The notes under the pieces were generated by a model. The model ran no database searches. It was not told where the DNA came from and saw only the letters and a list, made by a program, of their open reading frames with translations. 64,000 nucleotides of DNA. Source: Owenia fusiformis (Eukaryota; Annelida; Polychaeta; Sabellida; Oweniidae). Shown piece by piece: positions 29,701 to 58,487 of this stretch (position 1 is its first letter; each line of letters starts with the position of its first letter). The stretch covers positions 755,341-819,340 of the forward strand of contig CAIIXF020000008.1 in the NCBI GenBank assembly GCA_903813345.2, given 5' to 3'. A program made the translations under genes and the position numbers.

Positions 29701-32700
29701 GTTTTTTGACCGACAACCATGACTTTGGATTTTCTTTCGCTAAATGAAAACCCCCATTTAATTGCAAAAGAATTTACTATCGCGAGCATTGTTTTTAATT
29801 CTTGTTCTGACGTAGCAAAGAGCACAATATCGTCGGCAAACATTAGAGCGGGAATGTGTTGTTTGTTCAATTTCACTCCGATGTTGGCCGCTAATAGCTG
29901 GTCTTGGAGATCGGACATAATGATTGAAAACAGTGTTGTAGAGAGCACACAGCCCTGTTTTACTCCGAAAGAACTAGAATACCATTCCGTTTCATAACCT
30001 TCACCAAAAACGACTTTTGTTTTATTATCGTTATACATTTCCCGAATCAATCTCCATATCTTGCCTCTTATACCTTTCTTCCATAGGGTTAAAAACATTA
30101 AGTCGCGATCTTCTTCTTATCTATCTTCTTATCTTCTTCTTCTTCTTATTTTCAAAAGACAAAATGAAATGTATGTTACCTAAAGATATGAAAGGTAAAA
30201 AGGTGGTAAGTTCACAGGTAAATTACTTCACATAATTATAAACTATTTTCTTAAGTTTTATCTGAGCATGCTTAGTCCACATTTAATGAACAGGGATATA
30301 TAATACTCATAATATCGCTAGGAAATCCTTAGAATTTTTCAGTTTATTGTAAAAATATAATATATATTTTTGGGAGGGCAGTATCAGTCCAGAAATTATT
30401 CAATTTCAAACACACTGACAGAGTTGAATATAATAGATGACCAACGTCAAACAAATACAAACAGTAGATGCAAGACAAGAAAATACTGTTCAATTATCCT
30501 GAATTCTAACAAGCATCAAATCAACACTGAGAAAGAAGATAAAGCATGTTCTTGTTAATGGCAAGTCAGTTCAGAGTTTTATATCTGAGCTACAAATATC
30601 CCCATTACCCCTCCCATACCTGGAGATAATTATCAGACTTATATCTAATTCATATTTCTAGTAAAAAAATCAGAAAAAAACATAAAAGTTTCTCCAACAC
30701 TAAGGTCATTATCCTCTCTTGCGTCAATGATCATATTCAATACTGCATCCACCCTTTTGTTTATTTCTCTAATTTAAAACATATGGAACCAACAAAGACA
30801 TTTGTCTGATTACTAAGAAAACTAACTGGCTATATCTCCATTTCTCAATAACTGTGATAATGATATAAGAAACTTAAAAGAAACTCCCACACAGCAAAAC
30901 AATGTTGTGATATGTGAGCTCGGTGAACAAACAAATAACTTTGATATCAACTAACCAAACACTGATCACTTCTCCCGGCTTGATTAACCCAGAATTTCAC
31001 AAGAATATCTCAACAATGACACAATCTCATCCTGTCCTATGTGAAATACACTTCTCTTATCGAGACAGACAGTAGTCAAATAAATAAATATCTGAAATAT
31101 TGATTTTAATATCAGTTATTGATTAATCATCAAATATTAGCAAGATAGAGTTATCATTTCAGAAGCTAAATATTTGAATTATTTACCAATAGGCCACCCA
31201 GAGATGTTACATTTCAAACTGGTTTCATTCTCATTTTTCAAAATTCATTGAGGGGTGGGTTGCTATTAGTGCCTGGTATATCTATAATTACTTCATTAGT
31301 GACATGGTGTAGAAATGTATGAAGTGATTTTTCTTGTAAACATGCTTTTTAACTTCACAGTCTTGTGTCTTGCATGTGATTCATTTGTTGGAAATAACCA
31401 TTGCACTTTGTCTTTACACTCCCCCCATAAATTTGTCAAAAATTTCTAAACAATTTTTATAATTAAGTAACAAAATTCAGATCCAAACATTGAGAAACTT
31501 TGATATGCTGTCCAACTTCCAGTTGCCAAACTTATGGATGGGGAGTGTACATGCTATGATACCTTACAACGGTTGTCCAAGTATTGAAACAAAGTACAAA
31601 CTTTGATATGCTGTCCAACTTCCAGTTGCCAAACTTATGAATGGGGAGTGTACATGCTATGATACCTTACAACGGTTGTCCAAGTATTGAAACAAAGTAC
31701 AAACTTTGATATGCTGTCCAACTTCCAGTTGCCAAACTTATGGATGGGGAGTGTACATGCTATGATACCTTACAACGGTTGTCCAAGTATTGAAACAAAG
31801 TACAAACTTTGATATGCTGTCCAACTTCCAGTTGCCAAACTTATGGATGGGGAGTGTACATGCTATGATACCTTACAACGGTTGTCCAAGTATTGAAACA
31901 AAGTACAAACTTTGATATGCTGTCCAACTTCCAGTTGCCAAACTTATGGATGGGGAGTGTACATGCTATGATACCTTACAACGGTTGTCCAAGTATTGAA
32001 ACAAAGTACAAACTTTGATATGCTGTCCAACTTCCAGTTGCCAAACTTATGGATGGGGAGTGTACATGCTATGATACCTTACAACGGTTGTCCAAGTATT
32101 GAAACAAAGTACAAACTTTGATATGCTGTCCAACTTCCAGTTGCCAAACTTATGAATGGGGAGTGTACATGCTATGATACCTTACAACGGTTGTCCAAGT
32201 ATTGAAACAAAGTACAAACTTTGATATGCTGTCCAACTTCCAGTTGCCAAACTTATGGATGGGGAGTGTACATGCTATGATACCTTACAACGGTTGTCCA
32301 AGTATTGAAACAAAGTACAAACTTTGATATGCTGTCCAACTTCCAGTTGCCAAACTTATGAATGGGGAGTGTACATGCTATGATACCTTACAACGGTTGT
32401 CCAAGTATTGAAACAAAGTACAAACTTTGATATGCTGTCCAACTTCCAGTTGCCAAACTTATGGATGGGGAGTGTACATGCTATGATACCTTACAACGGT
32501 TGTCCAAGTATTGAAACAAAGTACAAACTTTGATATGCTGTCCAACTTCCAGTTGCCAAACTTATGGATGGGGAGTGTACATGCTATGATACCTTACAAC
32601 GGTTGTCCAAGTATTGAAACAAAGTACAAACTTTGATATGCTGTCCAACTTCCAGTTGCCAAACTTATGGATGGGGAGTGTACATGCTATGATACCTTAC

Positions 32701-35700
32701 AACGGTTGTCCAAGTATTGAAACAAAGTACAAACTTTGATATGCTGTCCAACTTCCAGTTGCCAAACTTATGAATTGGGAGTGTACATGCTATGATACCT
32801 TACAACGGTTGTCCAAGTATTGAAACAAAGTACAAACTTTGATATGCTGTCCAACTTCCAGTTGCCAAACTTATGGATGGGGAGTGTACATGCTATGATA
32901 CCTTACAACGGTTGTCCAAGTATTGAAACAAAGTACAAACTTTGATATGCTGTCCAACTTCCAGTTGCCAAACTTATGGATGGGGAGTGTACATGCTATG
33001 ATACCTTACAACGGTTGTCCAAGTATTGAAACAAAGTACAAACTTTGATATGCTGTCCAACTTCCAGTTGCCAAACTTATGGATGGGGAGTGTACATGCT
33101 ATGATACCTTACAATGGTTGGCCAAGTATTGAATCAGTACTGAACCCAGCTGAAATTTCACCATACCTTTCACCCAGTTTATAACATATTTGCACCTAAT
33201 TAAAAATTTGGAAAGTCAAGAAAAATTGTGATATATCAGTTGAGAGGAGAGATTGAGAAAAGTGCCTTATACCTTCATGCAGATCTTCAAAAGGGATGTT
33301 AAATATAGAAATGATGTCATGTATCATCAAGGATTGGGAGGAAATATAGATATTTTTTATTGACTGTTAGGAAATACCTGAGCAGCTCAAGGTATTTTAT
33401 AAATCAATAATAAGGAAGACTGGGTTTTATTACAAAGTCTGTTTCAGTCATTCACCCTGTCAGCTGTCCAAGAACTGTTCCACGAAAAACTAGCGAACAG
33501 GAAGTTAACACATCCTTTTATGAAAAGCCATTTTCATAATTTCAAAGACTGCGAAGGCACCCCATAGAGAACAGTCTTTTCCTAAGAATGGAATAATTAG
33601 AATGAAATGTGACTAAAATGAGATATTCAATTTGTGACTGAACAAATTGTTTATTTTTGCACAATAATTGAATGGCATAGGAATTAAATAAAATGTGAAT
33701 CAGGATTATCCCGAAAGGAGTCTCTTTGACAAGTGAAAAGTCAAAACAATATTACAAAATGAAGAAACTGTTGATCTGATCAGAATAATTACACTCATCC
33801 ATGAACTTCCCTTTTACACGTGTACTGCTATCAAAATTTATCATTTTGAGTGTTTATACAATGCTGAGGACAAAGACAAACAAGCACCAGCAAAATGCAC
33901 ATAAAACACTACCTTTAGACTAAACCTCTCTCAAAAATAACATTTTGTGGTAACTGGTAAGACACGTTTATAGTTATCAAGTAAACCCCAATGTTTAGAG
34001 ATTCGTGGTGTAGATCTATAATTGTCAAGGAGCACACCAGGATTCGACAGGTAAAATATCCCTCCAGAAAGTAGCGCCAAAATCCTCTCTGAAGTGCTCA
34101 ACAGGCTCCACACATCTACTGCAATAATGAAACAATTTTAAATGAAATATTACAAAATTATTAACAGATTTGGTTATGAGTTGGATGTCTGAGGAAGTTG
34201 AACCCTACTGTTCCAGTCAATCTCTCAACTCAACTTTCACCGCATTTTAGCTGAACTGATTTTCCACATAGGGAAATACCCGCAGATTTCAAGGATTGCT
34301 TCTTATGTGTTGTATTGGGTGATTGATTACGGGTCTTTCCCATAGGGGTGACCCATAAAACATCATCACCCAGGGAGAGTCTAATGGTGGTAAATCTAAA
34401 AATAATTTTCCTTGGAATAAAAGTGCAACTAAGTCATTTGACGACACTAAATCACTGCAACAAACAAAAATAATACATGTGTTTTAAATAAATAAATAAA
34501 TGAAGGTGAATTTCTGAAATAAAAAAAACTTTTACGAAACATCTTTAAAGAACTCCGCACTTCCCTATATCTTAATTTCCCAGATCATAAATTCCTATAA
34601 ATTCAATATTTATTTGATTTCATAATTAGATATATCTCAGGTGATATTTCAGATAAGCTTTCAATGCCTCATATTTCTGCCAGGTGATTGCACACCTTTA
34701 ACGAGTTTACCTGTAAGTACCAACTTGTAGCTAGCTGGCTGTCAGGTGTAAATGATGTGGATCAAGGTAGGCACCCAGCATCCCTGCTACATCACTCTTA
34801 GATGTATTCTATTGCTTAAAGGATTAAACTGTTTCTATTTGCTGATAGGTTGGGGCACCCCAGAATAATGAGCTACTTGGTGTATAGGTTGGGGCAAATT
34901 TGTGTAGGGCACACAGGAAACATTGTAAAGCGTAAAATGAGTTTTTCAATCGATGTCTTAATGCATTGCCTTACTTTTCATCAAAATTTAATACCATGTT
35001 TGATGACCACTTTAACAGCCTCAACATCTAAATAGTTATGAATGAATTAATTTGAATGATGGTTTTATTTTGTCAATAGTCAAAGAACCAAGTCAATGTT
35101 TAGGGGAGGGGTGAATAAAGACTCTGCAAGAAAAATGTTGATTTTCTAGTGAAGCTTAATTAAACGACAAATCAACATTTTTAACAATATAACAATATGT
35201 CATCACTTGTGGTGGTGACATAAAAGTAGATAACTTAAAACACAAAATTACTTGTGGACAATAGAAGCCACCACAGACACAGGTACCTCTCAGGTAAATC
35301 TACCTGTAATTGCAGTAGCCTACTGGCAATTAATATGATAGCTGCATCAGTATATCTCTGAGTCTGCAGGGATTACCTGACTGCTGCATGGGGTACGCCT
35401 ACATTAATTGCAATTACCTGGCTAATGTCAGCTTTAGTGGCAAATAAAATGCCAGAAACATGATCATGTATGTCTGCAGTGACATATCAAATATATTTTG
35501 GGGCTTGCGATTAAACTGTTTAGCTACATTTATGGCACTGAATGTTCTTCATTGGCTATATCACCCCCCCTCCCCCCCGCCCCCCTAGTGATTGGTACAA
35601 ACACATTTTCTCCCCGAAAATATGAAATTTTTGTGATCAGATAGTGCACTTCCTGAGTGTAGACCATTTTGGATTATCATAATAAACAAACTGGCACTAA

Positions 35701-42151: not shown

Positions 42152-45100
42152 ATGAGTACCAACGAGAAGCCAGTGTTCTACAACGTTGATAAATGGATAG
42201 ATGAAAACAAGAAGTTCTTTTTGCCACCAGTTTGCAACAAGATGATGTTAGTGAAGTTTGAAATTTCATGATTTCTTTAATTCAATAATTTTGCCCTGAT
42301 TTTTAATTTTGTGTGCTTTGACATGTCTATGTCTATGTCAATAATCCGCAAAAGGCTAATAAGCCCATATAAAGCAGATATATAATTTAACAGTGATAGA
42401 ATTTGAATAGAATATAATTTAAAACCTTAACATTTAAAAATAGATCTATGGTTTACAACTCATTTTACCTGGGGAGACTGTCAGGCTAACCGCGTTGACA
42501 TCACCCCTCTTTACCAGTAGTGCAGGCTTGTTGCTGTGCACTGGGGACCCTTTACATTAAAACATAGATCTATATTAAAAACACACCTATTTAATTGCAG
42601 TTATTGACATAGGCATAGTATGATGATTTAAAACTACTTAGACTGTCACAGTCTAAGATGTCACCAGGTAGAGTGTTCCATTTAGCTATTGTCCTAGGGA
42701 AATAGCTAAATTTGTATGCATCCGTTCTAGTTGATGGTTGTATGAACTTAGAAGGATGATACAACCTAGTGTTGGTATTGATCTGTTGGCGGAAGTATGG
42801 AGGCACGTCGATGGCTGCTAGGTTCTGCTTTCCTTTGTAGAAAAGGAAAACTCTAGCAGCCTCTCGACGCTCCTTCAGTGGCTCCCACTGTAGGTCTTGA
42901 AGAGCTTTGGTGACGCAGCCTGGTTCCCTTGAGTGACATTTGGTTACAAACCTGGCTGCTCTTCTCTGTACCTGTTCCAACATATCAATATCTTTTTGTC
43001 GGTACGGATCCCATGCCGAGCTGGCATACTCTAAATTAGGCCGGACTAGTGACTTATACGCCTGAGCCTTCACTTTTTCAGGGCATTGATGGAGGTTGCG
43101 CCTGAGAAATCCAAGCACCTTATTGGCTTTGGATACAATAGTTTGAATATGTGTAGTCCAGCGTAAGTTATTTGTGATGTCAATTCCTAGGTATGGGATG
43201 TGTGTTACCGACTTAAGGTTTTCCCCTAGCATGGTGTAATTGTGCATGATAGGGGATTTACCTTTGTGAATATTTAGCACATAGCATTTTGATGGATGGA
43301 GTTTCATTTGCCATGTTGATGCCCAGGAGACCAGTTTATCAAGATTCTCCTGTAGTGTTAATGCATCTTGCTTGCTTTCGACTGTCATGAATAAAAGGCT
43401 GTCATCGGCAAAAAGCTTAAGACTGGCTGAGGATGATAGGTTATTGCCCATATCATTGATATAAACAAGGAAACAGAGTGGTCCAAGAACTGTTCCTTGA
43501 GGAACTCCTGATTTTACTGGAGTTTTTGAACTTGATTCACCATCGAGCACTACCTGTTGTGATCTTCCCACAAGCCAGGATCTGAACCAGTTCAAGTTAT
43601 TATTGCGAATTCCATAATAGTCGAGTTTGAGCAAGAGGCGTTCGTGAGCCACCGTGTCAAACGCTTTGGAAAAGTCTAATACCAACATGTCTGTTTGTTT
43701 ATTGTTGTCGAGGGCCCGAGCTATATTCTCTATTGTATTGACAAGTTGTGTTTCACATGAGTGCTTTGACCTGAATCCATGTTGGAATTTTACTAGAATT
43801 TCATAGAGGTCAAAGTGGGCCATAACATGATGGAATATAATATGTTCCATTATTTTACATGGAACTGACGTCAGAGATACAGGCCTGTAATTCACAGCCT
43901 CATCTCTTCGTCCCTTTTTGTAGATAGCAGTAACATTGGCATGTTTCCAGTCCATAGGCACTAAGCCTTCATCGATAGACTGTTGAAAAATTATTTGAAG
44001 GAATGGTGATATGCTGTCACTGCATTCCTTCAGGACCCTAGTCGGAATAAGATCGGGTCCAGTGGCTTTTGATGGATTTAGGCCAGTTAGCAATTTGTGA
44101 ATTCCTTTTGTCGAAATTTTGATATTTGGCATTTCAGGAATTTGACTAGGTACCATTGTCGGTAGAGTGGCATCCTCATCTGTGAATACAGAATTGTATT
44201 GGTCATTGAGGATGTTTGCTTTCTGGGCGGCGTCTGTTATTTCGTCGCCATCTTTGTTACGCAGCACGCTGATACCTGATACATCTTTGCGTTTAGACTT
44301 TATGTAGCTCCAGAAGCGTTTGGTAATGCCTTTGTGCTGAACATTCTCATTTATGATTTCGCTTTCATCAATGTCAAGCAGATCGTTGATGTAGCGCTGA
44401 TGTTCTTTACGAATTTCACTATGGATTAATTTCCGTAGTGATTTGTATTTATGCCAATGATGAGGTTCATTTGAACGTTTGGCAACATTATATCGTCTTT
44501 GTTTCTGTCGGATCATTCTCAGTATTCTGGTGGTAATCCAGGGTACTTTGAATTTCCCGCTTAGAGTTTTACTTGGAATATGCTCATTGATTGACGATAT
44601 TAATGTAGATTTGAAGGAGGACCAGTTGTCTTCAACTGATCTACTTTCACAGTTCTCTTTGAATTCGCTGAACTTACGAAACATGTTTACATTTTTAAAA
44701 TATTAGCATATTGCGTGATTTGCGTGATATTTTATCATACATGCTAAATTGATGCATGATTTCTATTTTTCCAGCAAATGCGTGACAATCATGTCTAATG
44801 CTTGAGGGTTGACAGGGCTGCATGTTGTGAAATGAATGAATTTAGGAATGTCTGGTGCATTTTGTTGTATAACGTTCCCTTCTTCTAAGGCCACTATATT
44901 GTCCAAAGATAAATCCCCTATTTTCAACATTTTTCCACATCACAATTTGAATTTCGAGTTTTGGTCTTATTACCGCACCAAAAATTCTAAAACACACATG
45001 AAGTGATCAATGTATTAGTTCACATCTTCTGGATCGCTAACTTAGAATTTACAGCCAGTTACTAATGTCCAAAAAGGCAGAAATTCTTGAAATAAAAGGG

Positions 45101-48100
45101 AATGTGAAAACAGCTTAGGCGAATTGATAAAATTCTTGAAATGGCGAAACAGGCTCAAGCAGCGAAACAGTTATTTCATTTTTCAAGAAGTATCAATTGA
45201 AATGGTTGAAACGGTTTCGCCCCGGCGAAATTCGTGAACTTCCAGTTGAAAGTGTGATCCTCTACTGATTGAGTTATCAAGCTGAGCTGTAGTACCCCTT
45301 ACCCCTGTGGCACCATTCGTATCTAACTAATGTTTTCATCAGATACAAGAATTAACATTTAAAAGATAAAATGGAATGCCCCAAGACACTGCTCACAACC
45401 CCCAGGTATTGTCTGAGACCCTCCGCCCAAATCCCGGGCCCAAATCCCATCTGATAAACTATTGGTTCACTCAAACAATAAAATTGAATACAAATGGTAA
45501 AACTTTCTGGGGGAAAGGGACAGGCCTCTGGCAACACTCCCCCTCCAAATATCCCACTATCAAATGTGCCCTCTCCAACCCATGTAACCAACAAGAATTG
45601 GCCACTATAAAGAATGCACTACCAGCTGCTAAAACATTATTGAATATTTCTCCAGGCCAGGATTAGCCATATATTTGAGTAATGAGGTAATAAAAATGCT
45701 ATATTGTAACAGGAAAATCTCTAAGAATGTTAAAAAATATAAACAATATTCTGTAAAACCTATCTAATCCGAACGCCAATGAGACCAGCTGAAAGCATTT
45801 GGATTAGGAGGTGTTCAGATTTTTGAATATGATTATGAGGGTTCACTTCAAATTAGGAGATGTTCAGATTTCAAGGTTTTTTAACATGGGACTCCATTGG
45901 AAGAAACAGGACTGGAAACAAGTGTTCAGATTGGAAGGTGTTCAGTTTAACTAGGTGTTTTGATATACAGGTTTCACTGTAAATTAAATACAGATGTAGT
46001 TTCCTTCTTCTGCAGGCATCAGGTTGGCCAGATGAAGGCATTCTTTGTTGGTGGTCCTAACCAGCGGAAAGATTATCATATCGAGGCTGGGGAAGAGGTT
46101 AGTAAAACATAATGAGAACCCATAATTTCAACAATAATGCAAAATTTGTGAATTAGGAAATGTGCCTATATTTAAATACTATAGTACTATTTATTGTCGA
46201 GTTCTCACTTTAACATTAATTTATAATTTCAAAACATACCCAAAACATTTTCCAAGGACATTTGTACAAAGATGTCTCACTTGCATGCATGGTGCTTTGT
46301 CTTCCAGTTGTTCTACATGTTAAAGGGAGATATGTATTTTGTCTTCTAGTTGTTCTACATGTTAAAGGGAGATATGTATTTTGTCTTCCAGTTAATCTAC
46401 ATGTTAAAGGGAGATATGTATTTTCTCTTCCAGTTATTCTGCATGTTAAAGGGAGATATGTATTTTCTCTTCCAGTTGTTCTACATGTTTAAGGGAGATA
46501 TGTATTTTCTCTTCCAGTTGTTCTACATGTTTAAGGGAGATATGTATTTTGTCTTCCAGTTGTTCTACACGTTTAAGGGAGATATGTATTTTGTCTTCCA
46601 GTTGTTCTACATGTTAAAAGGAGATATGTGCCTCAAAGTAGTAGAGAACAACAAACATCGGGATGTACATATCAAAGAAGGGGAGGTATGTTACGTGTTG
46701 TGTGTTGGTTTTATCATCCCATTGAATGAAGTTCGGCGAGATATAGAGAATATATAGGCAATAACTCAAATTCTGTGACCAAGTATCATTTATATTTAAT
46801 AATAACACATAATACACATAATGTCTATATATATGGTTCAACTTATGTTTGAAAATTTGCCGCCATTTTTCAATGATCTCATTCAACACATGAATCAATC
46901 TTATAAACTTGTACTGTTGACGTCGTGATCTTCTTGTAGTTTTGTTGTTCTTCCATTCACCACATTTGTTCTTAAACTGAAGTTCACATTTGTACCCAGA
47001 CTGCCCTTCATACCTGTCATGTACTTACTTCTTATCCCATTCAACACATACTTTGTTTTTCCATTCACTACATTTGTTCTCACACTGTAATTCAATGTAC
47101 GCTGACCGCTCTTCTTAAATGTCAAACACTTACTTTTAATCTCATATAACACAGCCTTGGTACATACACTGGTGATAAAAATGAAAACACCCTGGCTCGC
47201 ATTTAACACAATGAACACATAAATAATGGCCTCATTATGCACAAAAGGCGCAATGAATCCAAAGATCCATGTAAAACCCATAATGATAAAGAGCTTGATA
47301 TAGACATCTAAATGGAAATTGTTTCCATTGGAGACCATTTTTGTTTGTTTCCATGTTGACTTTAGTGAGAATACAGTTAATATGTACATAATTGTGTTGA
47401 ACACAATCATAACTCCTAATGGGCAGGCAAAGAACAGTAATGTAGCATATGGATTGCTCATTTGACATGTTTGGACATTTGCATCCATGTTTGATGCACG
47501 TGACTCTAAGTTTGGCGTACTTGGTACTGGTTTTACTGTACCAAACTCTGAGTCTGCTGAGTCAGACACTGAATTACCATAAAAAGGCTTGAACCTTGTG
47601 CCATGATCCAATGTAACTGCCACAGATATTATGATTACTGGTAGGAACATTGCTATAAACACATAGAGAAGAATTCTTTTCCATCCTTTAGAGTTACGAA
47701 GAGTTGACCTAAATGTCAAATACATGTCTAGGGCAATAATTGCCATCCATGTGAAAGATACCAAGAAGAAGTAGTGAATCAGGATCCCAATAGCTTTACA
47801 AAGGCTTGGTACATCCATCACCAAAGGGCCAATCAGATACAAAATATGGGAAACACACAATGAGGATACAAAACAAAACTGGATTTTACCAGCGAATGAG
47901 TGATAGATGCTGATAAATGTTTGGAAGATGAGACGAATCAACATGGATATGATTGAGAGTGTCAAACATATTATAGTGACCAACCCCATTATTTCCGTAG
48001 ACTGAAGGCCAACCTTTTTGACCCGATTTTGTGTCTGATTCAGGAATGTACCATTCAACCAATCATAACATGTTACAAAATTGACCAAATCTATGCAAAT

Positions 48101-51100
48101 AGTCAGTGTGTCAAAATCAGAGTCTTTATCTCCTGATGAAGAATGTTCTTCCTTCGTAGAGTTTATTATGGCATCCACAGTTTCATTGTGAAATTCATGC
48201 AAGGTTAAGTTTGTTGTAATTGGGAGCTTCACCTTGAACTTAGCAACAAACACTCCATTTAGTCTCTTATCATCTGTGTCATAGTCTTTTGAGAAGCTAT
48301 ATGATATGTTCCCTACAAGTCTTCTGGTGAGTGTTTCTGAAGCATCTAATGCAAATGACAAATCAGAGATGAACTCACTACTGGTGTCTATAATTGACTG
48401 CACTTCTCCAAGAACAGTGTATTCGAATGATGCTGTAAGAGGTTCCATGTTGTACATGAAAACACATTTATCATTTTGTAATTCATATCCAGCAGTACAT
48501 GCATCATTACAGTTAGTAAGTTTATCACAACGGAATGATCTCTTTTTACCTTTGATGTGATATTCAACTGTAAGTTCTCTGTCTGGATTGATATTCATCA
48601 CCAAGGAAAATGAAAAACTCGGGAATATTGGCATATAAGAACCTTTTATGTTTGAACTGCAATGTTCCCCTGGCCAATCGTTTGCACAAATAGCGCAATA
48701 TTCATTTTTGTATACATCTTTATTTGTGGCATACATCTGTACAGACTCAGTGTCACAGAGTGTTTGTATAGTTTCATTGAATTCACAGTCGGGATGGCAG
48801 GTTGATTCGTACTTCCAACATTGATGTCCAAGTTGATCGAATACCAATTTGCAAGTCTTAGTATATATAGCTTGTTGCAGTTCTTCCATGTTGTAGGGCT
48901 GTATAAAAGGAGGACATGTAACTTCAGTAGGCATTTGAAGCTCACCTCTCGTGAAGTTGTTACATTTTGCACAGTAGTCGTTCAAGTAATACAGGCCAGT
49001 ATTATTGTCAAATACTGGCATATAACCTTCAAGAAGGTCCAAACCAAACAAATCACATGTTTTGTTACTAGAATGTGGACATGTTGTTATCATCTTTACA
49101 GCTGCACTATGTTTCTTTGTCGTACAGTTCAATTGGATTTGTTGGTCTTGGACAGACTCCATGATTTTTTGTGAGTTTTCTGCCATGACAGGACAAAGTT
49201 GTGCAAAGTCAGAACAACAATCTTCATTCACCAAACAGTACACATCACACGCACAATGTCGATCTGGACTTGTTTTATTACCACAGTTACCATGACAACT
49301 GTAGAGGTGAGGCATATATGTTGTACAGTCCTTTACCTCATCTAAAGCTGTCTGAAGTGTCTCCTGATTCTCACATGGACTTACATATTCAGGATGTAGA
49401 GTCATAAATATCATAAGTGGTGAAGATGTTTCTTGTTGAGTTGTGAATGGGTCTTCTGTGTTATATTCTGCTGTCACATTGAGTGTTGACAGTGAAGTCT
49501 CCTCATTGGTGTGTCCATTTGTCACATTAAGGCTTGCTTTTGTGTCCTCTCTTACATATGGATCCGTTGTATTTGGTGATTCAGTTACATTAATGTTTCC
49601 TGTAGTGTCATTTTCGCTTTTTACATCAAATATAGCTTTAATATGTTCTGTTTTTATCTCACTCGTAAGATAAGAATCTGATGTTTTATGGTTTCTGCTT
49701 TGGATTTTTGTATTGTTACCAACTTGGCTTGTGTCTCCACAAAACAAAAGTAGAACAATAAGCATGAAACTGTACAGGGATATTCTCAGTAGTGAAATGA
49801 CGTTCATCTTAACGGTTGTAATTTATATAAATATGCATCCAACTCTAATCCTTTACTCATTCACTTTGAATGTCTTATGATATATTTTTCCTTGACTGTA
49901 TCTATTACTTAGGCTTCCTTTACAAGCACATGCACTTTACCTTTTTATCACAGATGATAGTTTCTCTTAATTTTGCAACACTACATTCATCTTAAGAAAA
50001 GAAATATTACTTCTAAATCCCCATTTTATCCTTCAGTTCTTAACCTTCAGTTTCAGTTTGTTTTGTTTTCCTTTTATTGTACATATTAATAAAGATTAAA
50101 CCAGCATTGATCTTATCTTAATGCTTCTAATACCAACAAGTCCTCCATCAACATCATTCATCACTATTACTGAATTAATTAATTTATATTTCCGTTGTTA
50201 AAGGTTCTTTTAAAGCAATTTTTATCACCGTAGGTGCAATATTGTCATCAGTTTGCTGGGTGGATGGGTGGGTGAGCGTCCCACTTAATTTTATCCACAT
50301 GTTTCTAAGCAAATGGTTTGAAGGATTAAATTTTAAATTTTCAAAGATGTTTCTTGTATGAAAATCTCGAACTGATTCATTTTGTCCATTCTTGGTAAAT
50401 AAGGATGCCAATTTTGATTATCTGTCTTAAAATCCTGTCTGCTATGTCTTGTCTAAGAATTTTCAGGTGAACTGTTTGACGGATTGATTTCAAATTTTCA
50501 GGGATATTTTTCAGGGATATTTTCAAAATGATTAGATTTTGGGCATTCTGGATAAATGTGGCCATTTTAAGATTTTCCATTCTTAAATCTTGTCCGAAAA
50601 GTCTTTTCTATACATTTCTAGGTGAACTGTTTGATGGTTTGAGTTAAAATTTTCAGTGTTGGAACATTCTGGTAATTGTTGCTATTTTGGATTTCCGTTC
50701 CAAAATCTCATCTGAAGAGTCTTGCCTATATGTCTCCAGGCAAACCATTTGACGAATTGATTTCAGAAAATTTGGGTTGCTCCTCGATATGAAAGTTTAG
50801 AACTGCTTAGTTTTTGGCCATACTGCGTAAATGTTAAGATGGCCATCTTGGATTTTTCACCCTTTAATGTTTAAGGGTACGATTCTATTTACCCTGTGTC
50901 TTGGAGTATGACTCATACAGGAGTATGTGTTGTTTATAACTCGGAATAATCATTTCCCAGTACACTAATGAATCAGTTCCAAGACTGATATACCAGTTTA
51001 TCTGAAACTATACAATAAAAGGTCACAGTGAACAGGATCTTTGAATTATTTCTATACAAGATTTAAATGCAATTATTATAGGAGAAGCTATTTTGCATTA

Positions 51101-54100
51101 TTCATAGGTTCATTACAAACCTGTTAGTGATTTAAAGTGATTTATCTGTTTTGATTGATATTTTAATAGAAGTCATCAGACCCACTATTGTTGGAGACAT
51201 AATCAAGTCTACTTTTATCACAGAAAGTGCTTGTTAAATGTAATTTCAAACAATTTCATCATATTTTCCTCACTATTTTATTTAAATGGTTCATTTATTG
51301 TATTGTTTGAAGGTTGTATTTTTTGTTAACTCATGGTAATTTCCCCTTGTGATTATCATTATTCACCTAGAATGATGGAGTTTTAATACTACAGGCATTA
51401 TCAAAGTTCTCCTACACATTTTTATAATAGATGTGCAAAATAGAGCCTCAAATTACGCTCCTTTATGACAAATAAATGACGCTTTTGGATTAATACATCA
51501 TAAGAACGATGAGAGATTTGCTGATTGCTGAAAAATTAACCATTTCATTGCTTTATTTGATTGATGAAAGTAAAGAATATTAAAATCACATCTGGCACCC
51601 GATGTTTTGTAGATTTTCCTGCTTCCTGGCAACATTGCACATTCCCCACAAAGAGACGCAAACACTGTAGGGCTAGTCATTGAGAGGGAACGCTTAGAGG
51701 AAAAGGGCGAACTGGATGGACTTAGGTATACTATTAGTCTTTGAATTATGGGAATACACTGAAGGGCTAGTCATTGAGAGGGAACGCTTAGAGGAAAAGG
51801 GTGTATTGGATGGACGTAGGTATAGTATAAGTCTTTGAATTATGGGATTACACTGTAGGGCTAGACATTGAGTGGGAACGCTTAGAGGAAAAGGGCGAAC
51901 TGGATGGACTTAGGTATAGTATTAGTTCTTCAATTGTGGGATTACACTGTAGGGCTAGTCATTGAGAGGGAACGCTTAGAGGAAAAGGGTGAACTGGATG
52001 GACTTAGGTATAGTATTAGTTCTTCAATTGTGGGATTATACTGTAGGGCTAGTCATTGAGAGGGAACGCTTAGAGGAAAAGGGTGAACTGGATGGACTTA
52101 GGTATAGTATTAGTTCTTCAATTGTGGGATTATACTGTAGGGCTAGACATTGAGTGGGAACGCTTGGAGGAAAAGGGTGAACTGGATGGACTTAGGTATA
52201 GTATTAGTTCTTCAATTGTGGGATTACACTGTAGGGCTAGTCATTGAGAGGGAACGCTTAGAGGAAAAGGGCGAACTGGATGGACTTAGGTATACTATTA
52301 GTTCTTCAATTGTGGGATTACACTGTAGGGCTAGTCATTGAGAGGGAACGCTTAGAGGAAAAGGGTGAACTGGATGGACTTAGGTATAGTATTAGTTCTT
52401 CAATTGTGGGATTATACTGTAGGGCTAGACATTGAGTGGGAACGCTTGGAGGAAAAGGGTGAACTGGATGGACTTAGGTATAGTATTAGTTCTTCAATTG
52501 TGGGATTACACTGTAGGGCTAGTCATTGAGAGGGAACGCTTAGAGGAAAAGGGCGAACTGGATGGACTTAGGTATACTATTAGTTCTTCAATTGTGGGAT
52601 TACATTGTAGGGCTAGTCATTGAGTGGGAACGCTTGGAGGAAAAGGGTGAACTGGATGGACTTAGGTATACTATTAGTTCTTCAATTGTGGGATTATACT
52701 GTAGGGCTATACATTGAGTGGGAACGCTTAGAGGAAAAGGGTGAGCTGGATGGACTTAGATACAGTATTAGTCTTTGAATTGTGGGATTACATTGTAGGG
52801 CTAGACATTGAGTGGGAACGCTTGGAGGAAAAGGGCGAGTTGGATGGACTTAGATACAGTATTAGTCTTTGAATTTTGGGATTACACTGTAGGGCTAGTC
52901 ATTGAGTGGGAACGCTTGGAGGAAAAGGGCGAGTTGGATGGACTTAGATACAGTATTAGTCTTTGAATTTTGGGATTACACTGTAGGGCTAGTCATTGAG
53001 TGGGAACGCTTGGAGGAAAAGGGCGAGTTGGATGGACTTAGATACAGTATTAGTCTTTGAATTGTGGGATTACACTGTAGGGCAAGTCATTGAGAGGCAA
53101 CGCTAAGAGGAAAAGGGCGAGCTAAATGGACTTAGGTATGGTATAAGTCTTTGAATTGTGGGATTACACTGTAGGGCTAGTCATTGAGAGGGAACACTTG
53201 GAGGAAAAGGGCAAGCTGGATGGAATTAGGTATAGTGTTGTCGCGATGTGCCATAATCGTACATCAATGCATCGGCAATTTTCAGTAGTAAACATCGATG
53301 CACATTGCGATGTACATCGAGAAAAAGTCAGAGAAAAGTGCACTGAGATACCGAAAGCTAATGCACTAAAATACCGAACAGAACAAATTAATAAGAGTAC
53401 GCTGGTACATCCGGGAACTTCTAGTAACGGTGAAATGAAAGTAAAGTAAATTTTTTTAGATTAATGGTTCATTTCGACTAGCTAAAACAGTTTTAAAGTG
53501 AAAGAATATCAGAAAACATTGGAAAATGAAATAAGACATGAGAAAGGTAAGCAATTTGCGTCAAAATAAGATAAGAAAGGATGATTTTAAGCAAATTAAA
53601 TTTTTTTAAAAACATTGATGTTTTGTTTCAGACATCGATGCATCGCCAGAATCAGCTTTGGCGATGTTTATCGCGATGTATCGATTAATCGCGACAACAC
53701 TACTTAGGTATAGAATTAGTGTTTGAATTGTGGGATTACAGTCCATTAAGACCCATAGAGGCATCATCATCATTTCTTAAAAATTGCAAACAATCGTGAC
53801 GATTATATGTTGGTCTTTCTTTGGTACAGTTTTAACTTACACCTTTTAAAAATGCATAAACTGATCGATGGTTGATAATCTACAGCTACGTATGTTAAAT
53901 AATGAAAGAAAACCAACATTTTTATTTGGAATTGTTTCAATGTTCATTAAAATTTGTTTGCAGGTATTATGTAGAAAAAGATGGAGAGAAAACTCTAGAG
54001 TCGCTATATGAGGATTGGTTTTACTGCACTGACCTTGGAAGCCAACTAGCTCCAGTAATAAAAGCGTAAGGAATTAGTTTACAAGTATATCGCTACTATT

Positions 54101-57100
54101 ACATTGTAATGACATTGTGATAATTTTTGCCTGAAGTGTGGCCGCTGCTTGTATTAGTTATCCCATCGAACAAAGTTCCGAGGGATATAGGGAACGCCTC
54201 TGTCCGTCCGTCTGTACGTATGTCCGTTCATCCATCCGTCTCCGTAACTCAAATACCGTTGACCCGATTTTGTTCATATTTTGTACACACATACCTAATG
54301 AGGGTAGAAGTTCTGCTCGAAAACCGATTTTCAAAATGGCTGCTCATTTTAAAATGCAGCCATTTTAGTGCCGATTTTACAGTGATTTAGGTACTGCATA
54401 TAAAACTGTAATAGCAATATGTTTTAAATGTAAAAAAGTTATATAGGACATTGATTAAGTAAGAAATGTAAATAAAGAAGAAATACATGGCAGCCATCTT
54501 GAAACATGGCTGCCTTTGCACATCATTTTATGATTTTTGCTATAATTTGAAAAGTAGTGAAGCGATTTTTTCATATTTGGTATGGGAATTCTTTAAGCAT
54601 GGCACAATGTCTAATGACATTTTGGGTAGTAGACAGCCATTTTTACGTGTGTTATTTTACATTTTTTACTATAACTCAAAAAGTAGTTGATCGATTTTGT
54701 TCATATTTTATATGTGAATACTATAAGCATGGCACACTGTCTAATGACACTTTGGGCAGTAGGCGGCCATTTTGAAAAATGGCTACCATTTTTTATGTTT
54801 TTAGTATAACTTGAAAAGTAGTGAAGCGATTCTGTTCATAATACTTTAAGCATGGCACATTGTCTAATTAAACTTTTGGGAGTAGTCGGCCAATTTGAAA
54901 AATGGCAACAATTTTTATGTGTGTTATTTTACATTTTTTATTATAATTCAAAAAGTTATAGAGCGATTTTGTTCATATTTGATATGTGAATATAAGGATT
55001 GCATACTGTCTTATGACATTTTGGGTAGTAGGCGGCCATTTTAAAAAATGGCCAGCATTTACATGTATGTGCGATTTTTTAAAAATCTTTATATGTACCT
55101 ACTTAAAAGCATATTGCTTCTTCTGATGACAACTTGGCTAGTGAGCAACCATTTTGAAAATGGTGGCCTCTCTTATGGGTGTTATTTTATGATATCTGCT
55201 ATATATTTTGTTTGTAAAGCCAGCCATTTCTGTTCGATGGGATTCGCTACGCTTTGGCGTTGCCGTTGTTCTGGTTAATCTTCCTTGGATCACTCAGAGG
55301 TGAGGGGTTGATTTTAGCACATAGGTGGGAAGTCAGTCCAAAATCGTGATAGTAATTCCATGTTGAGTGTGCCAAGTAGAGACCCTTTTCATGTTCACAT
55401 GTAGCATATGTTGGAAACGCAGTACAGACACTATGGCAATGTGGGTCCAGACATCATACATAATTGACAAAACTGGAAACTAGGTGACAGCAATGTTCTA
55501 CTGTCTACGATAATTATACATATTCTATCTGCAATTTTTCACGGGATTTGGACATGCTTTTTTGGTGAGTTACCCTGCCCCCCCCACCCCCATAGTTGGT
55601 GATGATGCTGTCGACTCATTGTCATATTGTAGAAAATGACTGTGCCACATTTCCGACAAGTTCAATTTTGTAAGCAGATTGTGAGAAAAATAAACAAAAG
55701 TTTCAATCGTAACACTGGTCAATGCCTGATCAGAAATTTCTATGGATTTACACACCTTGAAGAATTGTTCACCGAATGTGAAGCATGAGTTCTCAAAAAC
55801 TTACCTATGTTTCGAGGACATGGAGGACGAAGTGGCTCCGTAATCGGAGTTGCCTCCATTTTGGTCTGTAACATGTTGCAGCCTCGTTTTGAACAGCTAT
55901 GCGTTTCTGCGCTGCGTTACCTATCTCCACCTTGCATTGGCGGATCCAGGAGCTAACAAGGGGGGCCCAGATTTCAAGTTCTCAAAAAATGTTGGGCCCC
56001 AAAAACCAAAATTTGTATATGTGATCTCATTATGTTCTGCTTGCCCTTTTTGGAATATCACTCCACACTGGTGGATCTGGGGGGGGGGTAATTTGAGTGT
56101 TGCAGATGAATATTGATGCAAGAATGTGAAAATATTTGCAGTGAAGGACATTGACACTTACAATAAAAGAATAACAATTATCCCTTTGAAATAAAAAACA
56201 GGTTTATTGTAAAATAATAGCCTTATAAACCAATGAAATACATACTGCAAAGCTCTGGAAAACAAATTTATGAAAACTAATATTTGTGACTTGTATTTTC
56301 CAGGTTCGTTGCTTCTGAGCAATGTAAGACTGGGAAGCCACTTCCAGGTAAATTCTATTTACACATTTACTTGTATTATCCCATCAAACGGAGTTCGGAG
56401 GGATATAGGGAACACCTCTGTCCATCGATCGGTATCCAAATGTTAGTCTGAATTTATCTTTGTGGAAAGATTGTATGCTTCAGTTGCTCTTTAACAAAAC
56501 ATGTGGGACAGTGTATCAATATATTACAAGACGTCTGTACATCCATCCATCCATACAACTGTCTGTCTGTCTGTCTGTATGTACATACGTCTATCGGGAT
56601 GATAACTAAATTTGTGAACCCAATTTTGTTTAATTTTGTACACATGTGCTCAATAGGAGTAGAAGTTCTGCTCACAAGCCGAATTTCAAAATGGCAGCCA
56701 TTGTAGTGCTGATTTTACAGTAATTTAGGTACTGTATATAAGACTGTAATAGCAATATGTTTTAAATGTTAAAAGGTTATATAGGACATTAATAAACCTA
56801 AATATAGATATTTAAGAAATATATGGCGGCCATCTTGAAAAATGGCGGCCTTTACATGCTATTTTACGAATTTTGTTGTAACTTGAAAAGTAGTAGAGCG
56901 ATTTTATTCATATTTGATATGTGAATTGAATACTCATAAGCATGGCGCATTTGAAAATGGTGGCCATTTTTATGTGTGTTATTTTATGATTTTTGCTAAC
57001 CAGAAAAGCATTTTGTAAAAATGGCAGCCATGGCTGTTCGATGGGATTTGCTACGCTTTGGCATTGCTGTTACCTACTTACTGATTACTATTGTATCTTG

Positions 57101-58487
57101 TTTTTTATGTAATGTGTATTCATTAAATCATATTTAGATTATTTCACTAGCATTGAATCAAAATTTCTCTAAATCTCAAACAATGATGCTTATAGATGTT
57201 TTATGCATGGAACACCAAACATACACAAGAGAATTCAAGAAAATTTCAGCATATTTAAAAATTAGTTGCATATTTTGGGCCACCCTGTAGCATCTGTTTA
57301 CTTTTAGATCTGTATAATATTTACCTTTACCTACATGAATTCAATAAGCATTTGTACACTATTCATCATATTAAAGGCACCATACCAGAAAACGCTCCAA
57401 TTGTGTTGGACTATATACTGTATAATATATGCCTTAACCTACATGAATTCAATAAGCATTTGTACACTATTCATCATATTAAAGGCACCATACCAGAAAA
57501 CCCTCCAATTGTGTTGGACTCTGAGAGAAAGCTGGAGGATCCATTCCCCCTAAAAGACTGGATCAACGCTAACAGGGCAGAGATTGAGGCTAATGGTCAT
57601 AAAGAAATTTTTGGAAATGGTTATCAATTTCAGGTGAGTTCAAAGGTCAGGGCAGATGCACTGCTCAGTGTAGTCTGATCTGCGGGACTGTGTTTGTTAT
57701 TGTGAATTGATTTGAAATAAAAAGTATTATACATTATTTTAAATAAAAAACCAATTGAGGATATATAAGTGGTTTATCTTGATAACTGCTTTGTCATGGT
57801 CGGGAGCTGTATCATCTTTCCTACTGAAGTGCACATACATGTATGTTCTTTAGTGGCTGGTGGGCTAACCGTACTTATGATTATCTATTTCCACAGGTGG
57901 ATATGTTTGGTAAAGGGGAGAACTCAGGAGGAAATGATGTTGCAGAGATCTGGATTTGGCAGATGGTAGGTCACTGTGGTTGTCATGTTTTGGTTACACT
58001 AGTCATGTTTTGAAATAGACAATTTGATAAAAACAGTGATAAGTGAAAGATATATGAACTGGGAAAACTAAGATACAATAGAGAGAGAAAATATTAAATG
58101 GGAAAAAAAGTTTATATACCAGTAATTCAATGTTGTCTAAATTTCCTCATATTGTCCAAAAAATGAAATATTGAAACATATTATCTTCTGTGTTTCAGGA
58201 AGGCAGTTCAGAGGTGACAATAGATGGCGAGCTCTTCAAACTCAGTGAGAATGACAGCCTTCTTATTCCAGCTGGAAAACGGTATAATTTATTTTATTTG
58301 AAATTCAATGGACTGCACCTCAATAAATTAACAAAGTTTTCATTTTTAAATGTATCACAAGTAGATGAGACCAATGACGGAATAAGTTAAATGAACCAAT
58401 CATTGTTTTTCCAGATATACAGCAAAACGGGGAGAAGGATCACTTGCGTTGATTTGCTTCCAAGATCCTTTTAGAAAATACAAGTAA
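42152..58487 (+). CDS. HAAO: 3-hydroxyanthranilate 3,4-dioxygenase (10 exons, 297 aa)
   Basis: Cytosolic non-haem Fe(II) cupin enzyme of the kynurenine pathway: 3-hydroxyanthranilate plus O2 gives 2-amino-3-carboxymuconate semialdehyde, the precursor of quinolinate and NAD. Exons: 42152-42246, 46016-46097, 46602-46685, 51613-51725, 53964-54065, 56304-56347, 57485-57633, 57897-57965, 58199-58281, 58415-58487. They total 894 bp, all with AG/GT borders and matching phases; 297 residues against 286 in human. Start [15 protein letters not shown]; exon 1 ends VCNKM as in the family. Metal ligands expected from the family are present: H53 and E59 ([11 protein letters not shown]) and H97 (HSPQR); substrate-side R49, R101 and E111 are also present. 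The end is [10 protein letters not shown]. Intron 1 holds a LINE, intron 3 a nested receptor gene, and introns 2, 4 and 6 carry tandem copies of the adjoining exon borders (separate entries). I chose the acceptors and donors that give family-like length; real splice choice needs RNA. Confidence 0.94.
42440..44704 (-). mobile_element. Non-LTR retrotransposon (jockey/CR1-like group) with intact RT ORF
   Basis: LINE antisense in HAAO intron 1. ORF 44684-42591 codes 697 residues without interruption. The reverse transcriptase has NYRPVSLTS (about 265), catalytic motif [11 protein letters not shown] (about 335-344), motif [12 protein letters not shown] (about 392-402) and motif C FADD (425-428), then the usual thumb and C-terminal region ([10 protein letters not shown]). 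There is an in-frame TAA at 44705-44703 and no endonuclease domain, so the copy is 5' truncated. About 150 bp of 3' UTR follow on the minus strand, but the outer ends are approximate and no target duplication was found. The intact ORF suggests a young insertion (inference). Confidence 0.88.
45752..45981. mobile_element. MITE-like repeat with CAGT(A/G)AAACCT ends (pogo/Tc1-like)
   Basis: Begins TGTAAAACCTATCTAATCCG and ends CAGGTTTCACTGTA, an inverted pair. The interior repeats GGTGTTCAGATT-like words. Related pieces lie at 12880-13021 and about 19440-19535. The right end is only about 35 bp from HAAO exon 2, so it borders the pyrimidine tract of that acceptor. The family assignment is from the ends only. 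Confidence 0.5.
46294..46601 (+). repeat. Tandem array of HAAO exon 3 acceptor, exact 42-bp period
   Basis: Each 42-bp unit has a pyrimidine tract and AG (TTTTGTCTTCCAG) followed by the first 27 or so bases of exon 3, coding [11 protein letters not shown]-adjacent unit starts are at 46308, 46350, 46392, 46434, 46476, 46518, 46560 and 46602; the last is the true exon. There are no indels. 42 bp is 14 codons, and from 46350 onward the frame stays open into exon 3 (repeat peptide [14 protein letters not shown] with small changes). Using the first copy would meet an in-frame TAG at 46347. The array fills most of the 504-bp intron 2. Confidence 0.95.
46901..49807 (-). CDS. Somatomedin-B plus seven-transmembrane receptor, methuselah/adhesion-like, intronless
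   Basis: An uninterrupted 968-codon ORF inside HAAO intron 3 on the opposite strand. Residues 1-23 form a signal peptide (hydrophobic run [11 protein letters not shown]). Residues about 30-140 are a Ser/Thr/Asn-rich stalk with many N-glycosylation sequons. A Cys-rich somatomedin-B-like module (CHGNC...CACDVYC...DCCSDF) sits at about 170-206, followed by more Cys-rich ectodomain to about 590. Seven hydrophobic helices follow at roughly 604-628, 640-665, 672-697, 712-734, 788-812, 836-858 and 861-884, with GFTWIFGF in helix 6 typical of secretin/adhesion-class receptors. C670 and C781 could form the usual extracellular disulfide. I see no clear GPS autoproteolysis site before helix 1, as in methuselah-type receptors. 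The cytoplasmic tail repeats a short element ([11 protein letters not shown] and [12 protein letters not shown]). The ligand is unknown. A single exon suggests origin by retrocopy or an expanded intronless family (inference). Confidence 0.88.
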   Translation of the reverse strand: MNVISLLRISLYSFMLIVLLLFCGDTSQVGNNTKIQSRNHKTSDSYLTSEIKTEHIKAIFDVKSENDTTGNINVTESPNTTDPYVREDTKASLNVTNGHTNEETSLSTLNVTAEYNTEDPFTTQQETSSPLMIFMTLHPEYVSPCENQETLQTALDEVKDCTTYMPHLYSCHGNCGNKTSPDRHCACDVYCLVNEDCCSDFAQLCPVMAENSQKIMESVQDQQIQLNCTTKKHSAAVKMITTCPHSSNKTCDLFGLDLLEGYMPVFDNNTGLYYLNDYCAKCNNFTRGELQMPTEVTCPPFIQPYNMEELQQAIYTKTCKLVFDQLGHQCWKYESTCHPDCEFNETIQTLCDTESVQMYATNKDVYKNEYCAICANDWPGEHCSSNIKGSYMPIFPSFSFSLVMNINPDRELTVEYHIKGKKRSFRCDKLTNCNDACTAGYELQNDKCVFMYNMEPLTASFEYTVLGEVQSIIDTSSEFISDLSFALDASETLTRRLVGNISYSFSKDYDTDDKRLNGVFVAKFKVKLPITTNLTLHEFHNETVDAIINSTKEEHSSSGDKDSDFDTLTICIDLVNFVTCYDWLNGTFLNQTQNRVKKVGLQSTEIMGLVTIICLTLSIISMLIRLIFQTFISIYHSFAGKIQFCFVSSLCVSHILYLIGPLVMDVPSLCKAIGILIHYFFLVSFTWMAIIALDMYLTFRSTLRNSKGWKRILLYVFIAMFLPVIIISVAVTLDHGTRFKPFYGNSVSDSADSEFGTVKPVPSTPNLESRASNMDANVQTCQMSNPYATLLFFACPLGVMIVFNTIMYILTVFSLKSTWKQTKMVSNGNNFHLDVYIKLFIIMGFTWIFGFIAPFVHNEAIIYVFIVLNASQGVFIFITSVCTKAVLYEIKSKCLTFKKSGQRTLNYSVRTNVVNGKTKYVLNGIRSKYMTGMKGSLGTNVNFSLRTNVVNGRTTKLQEDHDVNSTSL
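50270..50880. repeat. Degenerate tandem repeat, three to four copies of roughly 180 bp
   Basis: Recurring blocks: GTGAACTGTTTGA(C/T)GG, TTGATTTCAAATTTTCAG, a (C/G)ATTCTGG(A/T)AA stretch, ATGGCCATTTTGGATTTTCC and AAATCTTGTC(C/T)GAA. Copies are old and diverged. It lies between the nested receptor and HAAO exon 4. Confidence 0.55.
51662..53740 (+). repeat. Tandem array of HAAO exon 4 end plus donor, 17 copies, exact 94-bp period
   Basis: Units start at ACACTGTAGGG; the GGG of successive copies lies at 51670, 51764, 51858 and so on every 94 bp to 53174. Copy 1 is the end of true exon 4 (coding [20 protein letters not shown], then AG before the GT donor). The others are copies in intron 4 of the last roughly 60 coding bases, the donor and about 35 bp of intron. 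Copies 12-15 have AGATACAG in place of AGGTATA, so the donor is lost; 13 of 17 retain GT. Copies 6-7 and 9-10 are near identical at a 282-bp distance, a three-unit higher-order repeat. Copy 17 is split by a hAT-type MITE (53233-53702). 94 bp is not a multiple of three. Confidence 0.95.
53233..53702 (+). mobile_element. hAT-type MITE, TAGTGTTGTCGCGAT family, copy 2, inside the 94-bp array
   Basis: 470-bp element with ends TAGTGTTGTCGCGAT and ATCGCGACAACACTA, flanked by ATTAGGTA (53225-53232) and CTTAGGTA (53703-53710), a 7 of 8 match. The interior matches the 40762-41197 copy reversed. It split the last unit of the HAAO exon 4 array at its donor site, so it landed after that unit formed. Small ORFs crossing it are chance. 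Confidence 0.88.
54168..55262. mobile_element. Foldback-type repeat with TCCCATCGAAC ends, copy 1
   Basis: TCCCATCGAAC at 54171 and GTTCGATGGGA at 55232 form inverted ends. The interior contains a TCCG-rich simple stretch, then four to five degenerate tandem units of roughly 170 bp, each with GCATGGCACA.TGTCTAATGAC, GGCGGCCATTTT, a TTATTTTA stretch and AGCGATTTTGTTCATA. It lies in HAAO intron 5. Non-coding; the superfamily was not recognised. Confidence 0.6.
56379..57060. mobile_element. Foldback-type repeat, copy 2
   Basis: A second copy in HAAO intron 6, with TCCCATCAAAC at 56379 and GTTCGATGGGA at 57036, the same GAGGGATATAGGGAAC start, CTGT-rich microsatellite and AATGGCGGCC units, but fewer internal repeats than copy 1. 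A fragment of the start also occurs near 46712-46760 (CCCATTGAATGAAGTTCGG). Confidence 0.6.
57310..57525 (+). repeat. 108-bp tandem duplication across the HAAO exon 7 acceptor
   Basis: Two copies, 57310-57417 and 57418-57525, covering the end of intron 6 and the start of exon 7. The true acceptor is taken as 57484/57485, the copy at 57376/57377. 108 bp is 36 codons, and the stretch from 57377 to 57485 has no stop in the exon 7 frame, so use of the upstream acceptor would add 36 residues in frame (starting [12 protein letters not shown]). The copies differ at a few bases (for example GCT versus CCT). Confidence 0.93.

Follow-up and report, generated by a model that had tools for sequence, protein, structure and literature searches.

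Tandem arrays that span exon borders are a habit of the Owenia fusiformis genome and are common in its ordinary genes. The eight-unit array at the intron 2/exon 3 border of HAAO is probably a mirage of this kind, in which the exon-nearest (eighth) acceptor would mostly be used and units 1 to 7 would leave with the intron. This reading was reached from the nucleotide sequence of a 64,000-nt window (contig CAIIXF020000008.1, positions 755,341 to 819,340, forward strand) and of gene loci sampled elsewhere in the assembly. Positions are those of the window unless another contig is named.

HAAO is complete in the window, with ten exons on the plus strand (42152–58487) encoding 297 aa and no stop: exon 1 (coding part, from the ATG, 42152–42246), exon 2 (46016–46097), exon 3 (46602–46685, 84 nt from the eighth acceptor), exon 4 (51613–51725), exon 5 (53964–54065), exon 6 (56304–56347), exon 7 (57485–57633), exon 8 (57897–57965), exon 9 (58199–58281), and exon 10 with the stop codon (58415–58487). 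For exon 1, the donor GTTAGT was the one among the frame-keeping GTs that gives the peptide closest to aligned relatives. The predicted peptide matched the Pfam 3-HAO profile at 2.6e-60, and its nearest solved chains were 3fe5 (1.7e-96, the best) and 2qnk (6.4e-94), and besides fitting the 3-HAO profile, the gene resembles animal HAAO along its full length. Of the matches listed genome-wide, the 14 to the protein and the three to the family profile all lie inside this locus; a second HAAO copy was not found with protein and family queries in the 498 Mb searched (498.3 Mb in 525 contigs, from which stretches of the genome may be missing). The locus has one match in the genome, so the array is seen in one copy. 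On the spliced peptide, the last residue of exon 2 is E59, which we take to be a metal ligand by likeness to known HAAO enzymes. Intron 2 would be 210 nt long with acceptor 1 and 504 nt long with acceptor 8; intron 3 measures 4,927 nt. The introns also house other reading frames on the minus strand: a reverse transcriptase frame (RVT_1) of a retroelement lies within intron 1 (42591–44702), and a single 973-residue open frame, encoding a secretin-family 7tm receptor with a somatomedin B domain, is nested in intron 3 (46901–49822).

At the exon 3 border, TRF reported a single array (46296–46629) with a period of 42, 8.0 copies, 94% matches, no indels, and a score of 577, in agreement with the eight acceptor copies at an exact 42-bp period that an earlier note on this DNA had described. 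The array comprises eight 42-bp units on the plus strand (46296–46631) that join the end of intron 2 to the start of exon 3; units 1 to 7 are decoys and unit 8 is authentic. Each unit has 12 nt of intron (pyrimidine tract plus AG) followed by 30 nt of exon 3 start. The intron part, from the end of intron 2, reads TTTGTCTTCCAG. The exon part, put earlier at about 27 bases, is 30 nt long: 28 of these align to exon 3 with a single mismatch, and the final two nucleotides (AT) are absent from both flanks. As the earlier note held, the AG is kept in every unit (8/8); the AGs end at 46307, 46349, 46391, 46433, 46475, 46517, 46559, and 46601, and the base that follows each is the first exon base, which accounts for the junction positions 46308 to 46602 given there. 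The predicted reading frames also came out as it had them: reading from acceptor 1 reaches an in-frame TAG inside copy 2 (46347–46349, plus strand), and acceptors 2 to 7, six of the seven decoys, are in frame and open through to exon 3.

Acceptors 2 to 8 have near-identical splice signals, with pyrimidines at 13 or 14 of 18 positions and the same repeat as upstream sequence, and the original intron sits upstream of acceptor 1 alone among the eight. Perfect branch-point motifs were present upstream of acceptor 1 (CTCAC, 46276–46280, plus strand, 28 nt upstream) and acceptor 4 (TTAAT, 38 nt upstream) only. Acceptor 8 has no perfect yTnAy within 16 to 50 nt, and the same is true of one of the eight other authentic HAAO acceptors (58414). 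Acceptor 8 is distinguished by the length of its exon, the exon 3 donor lying 84 nt from it and 126 to 378 nt from the others. By hand count, the changes within the repeated part of the eight units were 2 silent, 5 missense, and 1 stop, and the 126 possible single changes in a unit divide into 18 silent, 98 missense, and 10 stop; the unit changes look neutral, without coding constraint. Unit-by-unit comparison showed variants common to neighboring units 3-4, 4-6, and 5-7.

Besides the array that the earlier note described, HAAO contains two further border arrays on the plus strand. The unit of the first (51662–53236; 94 bp × 17) runs from the last part of exon 4 through the donor into the beginning of intron 4; GT is kept in 13 of its 17 units, units 12 to 15 having lost it, and a three-unit pattern was visible by eye in units 4-6 and 7-9. 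The second (57310–57520; 108 bp × 2) joins the end of intron 6 to the start of exon 7 and is in frame and open, with a second reading frame open as well. The presence of arrays at the exon 4 donor and the exon 7 acceptor supports the mirage reading of the exon 3 array. Within the last exon 4 donor unit lies an insertion (53233–53702) that resembles a small DNA transposon, its ends being perfectly inverted over 15 nt, and repeat-like sequence resumes beyond it. Near-perfect arrays were also observed at 31495–33133 (103 bp × 15.9, 99%) and 15122–15389 (67 bp × 4, 98%) in the window.

To sample the rest of the genome, we chose loci via gene family and not via repeats. The CCT family had 60 matches and the myosin-head family 92 (152 in all); 26 loci (214,423 bases) cover 119 of them, and 13 arrays spanned an exon border in these loci. 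The acceptor arrays were those of L008 (30 bp × 2), L010 (83 bp × 9.1), L013 (96 bp × 4.2), L014 (86 bp × 1.9), and L022 (91 bp × 11.8 and 260 bp × 4.2), and the donor arrays those of L006 (154 bp × 2), L008 (48 bp × 5.3), L013 (53 bp × 20 and 28 bp × 16.6), L021 (34 bp × 4), L022 (83 bp × 7.2), and L026 (41 bp × 4). A kinesin replicate of 9 loci (52,509 bases, 41 matches) was taken before the arrays in it were viewed. Its loci were picked by eye from 13 clusters in which at least 4 matches begin inside 8 kb (a 10-kb limit gives 14 clusters), a choice that was not wholly blind because stops inside some listed matches could hint at arrays. Eight border arrays were present: acceptor arrays in L033 (42 bp × 3.5 and 93 bp × 3.9) and L035 (76 bp × 4.2 and 154 bp × 7.7), and donor arrays in L034 (91 bp × 16.7), L035 (39 bp × 19.6 and 57 bp × 16.9), and L041 (47 bp × 2). 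Altogether, the three families yielded 21 border arrays in 266,932 bases, distributed over the twelve loci just named out of 35; L008/L009 and L011/L012 are contig neighbors, so there are fewer genes than loci. Borders are putative in that each was identified by reading, as exon peptide beside GT or AG.

Several observations were made alongside this sampling. The kinesin locus L042 (contig C2:23266200-23270200) has an exon-start acceptor array of 159 bp × 17.9, and the 17 extra acceptors listed for it are out of frame or stopped; it stands outside all counts, having been chosen after its repeat showed in the match listing. On contig C9 (37986009-37994334), twelve consecutive matches fall on the same stretch of the myosin-head profile (about positions 18 to 84) and are perhaps a cluster of mutually exclusive exons. 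The CCT gene on contig C222 had no match among the other sampled loci, hence no haplotype pair for array length, and a COX1 search of the assembly at E 0.001 gave no match, so no mitochondrial genome was found there. A Hox gene on contig C1, where the strongest homeobox matches lie at 17.97 to 18.47 Mb, encodes a Lox5-type homeodomain followed by KLTGP, a combination that we take to be a spiralian marker.

Array periods showed no bias toward the reading frame. Including HAAO's three arrays and leaving out L042 (159 bp, a multiple of three), 9 of 24 periods are multiples of three, compared with 8 expected (P = 0.41). Acceptor arrays account for 6/12 of these and donor arrays for 3/12; frame selection on acceptor periods was considered on account of the lean to 6/12 and was rejected as not significant (P = 0.18). 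The predicted products of decoy acceptors were then compared where the decoys have exact letters, a scope that leaves aside L008, L035c, L035d, and the L022 260-bp array. All eight listed decoys of the nine-unit array in L010, a gene that we take to be CCT8, are out of frame or stopped, and all 11 listed decoys fail in myosin L022, as do those of the L033 93-bp array (3/3) and L014 (1/1). In-frame open decoys were seen in L013 (3/3) and in the L033 42-bp array (3/3). CCT8 is generally regarded as essential, and the CCT8 query had one match in the genome. If genes such as CCT8 work, the spliceosome here would pick the exon-nearest acceptor, because the CCT8 and L022 arrays leave no other acceptor productive.

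Whether exon borders are preferred over other places depends on the null. Under null A, in which whole arrays were slid around each locus, none of the five settings gave an excess at exon edges; with a period of at least 25 and a 20-nt tolerance, 11 edges were hit where the shifts averaged 18.6 (at least 11 in 1945 of 2000 shifts), and 10 arrays touched an edge versus 10.6 (1368 of 2000). We set null A aside as unsuitable, a judgment made after its result was known, because an array of kilobase length, when placed at random, covers exons that no real array was ever inserted into. Null B collapsed the arrays, placed one unit of each at random positions that were not wholly exonic, and counted the arrays that touch the edge of a family match; this count is by position and does not correspond exactly to the arrays read by eye. 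With a period of at least 25 and no tolerance, 10 of 40 arrays touched an edge in the CCT and myosin loci versus 3.85 expected (reached in 12 of 5000 simulations), 5 of 10 in the kinesin loci versus 2.20 (178 of 5000), and 15 of 50 in the sets combined versus 6.09 (2 of 5000). In the CCT and myosin loci the result weakens when cross-search exons are added, and the weakest of the 16 settings gave 11 versus 6.65 (225 of 5000). The weakest kinesin setting gave 5 of 15 versus 3.35 (1101 of 5000), and the weakest combined setting 28 of 5000. Arrays within one gene are not independent. An excess at borders, about two- to two-and-a-half-fold under null B and nil under null A, is likely but not proven.

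Three other explanations of the exon 3 array were weighed against the mirage reading. The earlier note had proposed that use of acceptors 2 to 7 could give a set of length-variant enzymes, with one to six 14-residue blocks added directly after E59, that is, between GDM and CLKV. The exon structure places the insertion point where the note had it, the period of 42 is in frame, acceptors 2 to 7 are open, and the signals around acceptors 2 to 8 are nearly alike; furthermore, the exon 7 array and the acceptor arrays of L013 and L033 (42 bp) are in frame and open as well. Yet the three solved HAAO relatives that were aligned, of 15 listed, have no insertion at this point, the unit changes show no coding constraint, the periods show no frame bias, and the product of acceptor 1 stops. 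The openness of the exon 7 array is weak evidence, since its second frame is open too. We consider useful length variants unlikely. A further possibility is that acceptor 1 wins most of the time, so that its transcript meets the TAG at 46347 and is degraded, and HAAO output falls because of the array. The perfect branch-point motifs upstream of acceptors 1 and 4 only and the TAG in copy 2 would favor this, as would the preference of human splicing for upstream acceptors (PMC9225289, in excerpt) and the inhibition of splicing when two acceptors are occupied concurrently (PMC5389562, in excerpt). Against it, HAAO is otherwise intact and the genome search found no second copy, and CCT8 tolerates a nine-unit acceptor array that is out of frame; such a lowering of output as the main effect seems quite improbable. 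Finally, tandem arrays are hard to assemble and there is one copy of the locus, so the array or its copy number could be wrong; however, the differences among units are structured and many loci carry similar arrays with different units, which makes an assembly artifact very improbable indeed.

The mirage reading is supported by the frequency of border arrays, by periods that ignore frame, by unit changes that look neutral, and by the regular splicing reported for such arrays in lancelets (PMC3087553, PMC3902484). It is weakened because acceptor 1 alone keeps the original intron and a perfect CTCAC, and because the human acceptor preference is upstream for such an exon layout. In human data, as excerpted, upstream acceptors are favored overall, and an exon that follows a short intron and precedes a long one behaves as under intron definition; with long introns, the sites closest across the exon are preferred, in agreement with acceptor 8 (PMC9225289). 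A share of wasted transcripts from use of acceptor 1 is plausible, since this acceptor keeps the original intron and the CTCAC motif and its product stops at 46347. In line with use of acceptor 8, in a globin model with duplicated acceptors, exclusively the distal site was spliced, very inefficiently, according to the excerpted report (PMC5389562). Between the two outcomes that the earlier note had offered, choice of the eighth site is the better supported, because the arrays are common, their periods ignore frame, and in CCT8 and myosin only the exon-nearest acceptor is productive; length variants have less in their favor, although acceptors 2 to 7 are indeed in frame and open. The expectation that either outcome would be unusual did not hold, as such arrays are frequent in this genome and are known in lancelets (PMC3087553, in excerpt).

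We propose that the exon 3 array arose by minisatellite-like tandem expansion of a segment spanning the HAAO intron 2/exon 3 border. A small tandem duplication, probably made by end joining with a 2-nt filler, would have copied 12 nt of intron and 28 nt of exon, and unequal exchange would then have enlarged it to eight units. By eye, the junction of the donor array has an ACA common to its two parents, and those at exons 3 and 7 contain AT and TATATA, respectively, letters present in neither flank. Because the junctions show shared ACA or filler AT/TATATA, small tandem duplications by end joining followed by unequal exchange fit all three. In splicing, pairing by the spliceosome across the 84-nt exon 3 would mostly link its donor to the eighth acceptor, leaving units 1 to 7 to be removed as part of intron 2.

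Excerpts of the lancelet literature describe mirages as minisatellite-like duplications of intron-exon boundaries in which splicing was reported to be regular (PMC3087553, PMC3902484). The cases are Adh3 and the globins BflGb6 and BflGb9 (PMC3087553), together with PGBD5 and troponin C (PMC3902484); somatic instability was seen in the Adh3 mirage, and the origin of mirages was called unclear (PMC3087553). Like the HAAO arrays, mirages are border-spanning tandem units at 5′ or 3′ borders. Many but not all of their copies keep AG/GT, compared with 8/8 AG and 13/17 GT in HAAO, and their units are 10 to about 160 bp (PMC3087553, PMC3902484, in excerpt). Further traits by which mirages are recognized are inner units that evolve in concert and array lengths that vary among haplotypes or cells. 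In contrast to lancelet mirages, the arrays described here occur in a spiralian, reach about 20 copies, and number three in one gene, and the 42-bp HAAO unit has only 12 nt of intron and is in frame and mostly open. The hosts of the mirages found in the literature are cephalochordates and this one is not, but the mechanism is defined without reference to the host. Two related systems differ in other respects. In potato RdRp, an intron was gained via tandem duplication across the intron 1/exon 2 border with splice signals inherited (PMC4974935, in excerpt); that case has one duplication and a new intron, whereas HAAO has eight units and no sign of a new intron was detected. In human genes, minisatellite repeats at exon-intron boundaries can yield new introns (PMC2812944, in excerpt); those internal tandem repeats lie in recent segmental duplicates, while HAAO and CCT8 have no recent duplicate in view. 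Among openly licensed papers on mirages or border repeats and on Owenia, no title or opening of an abstract reported a comparably array-rich genome, and in the Owenia genome paper the sole passage containing "tandem" concerns LTRs. What is new, on our best reading, is the frequency of splice-border arrays outside lancelets, with the HAAO array being a mirage rather than a one-off isoform device.

An array-rich genome outside the lancelets is a more interesting result than the single HAAO array, as the literature searched has border arrays from lancelets and single cases elsewhere, and here, in a distant animal, many ordinary genes carry them. The arrays form a natural set of competing, near-identical splice sites and bear on how the spliceosome chooses one of many equal sites, as well as on the question of whether tandem duplication is drawn to splice junctions and thereby contributes to intron gain. 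We tentatively raise the possibility, itself rather doubtful, of a mutational process aimed at splice junctions, in which expansions would start preferentially at borders, reach about a third of the sampled loci, genes regarded as essential among them, and be tolerated via exon-nearest pairing. If this is true, arrays that keep the frame, like the one at HAAO exon 3, would constitute a standing supply of length-variant proteins.
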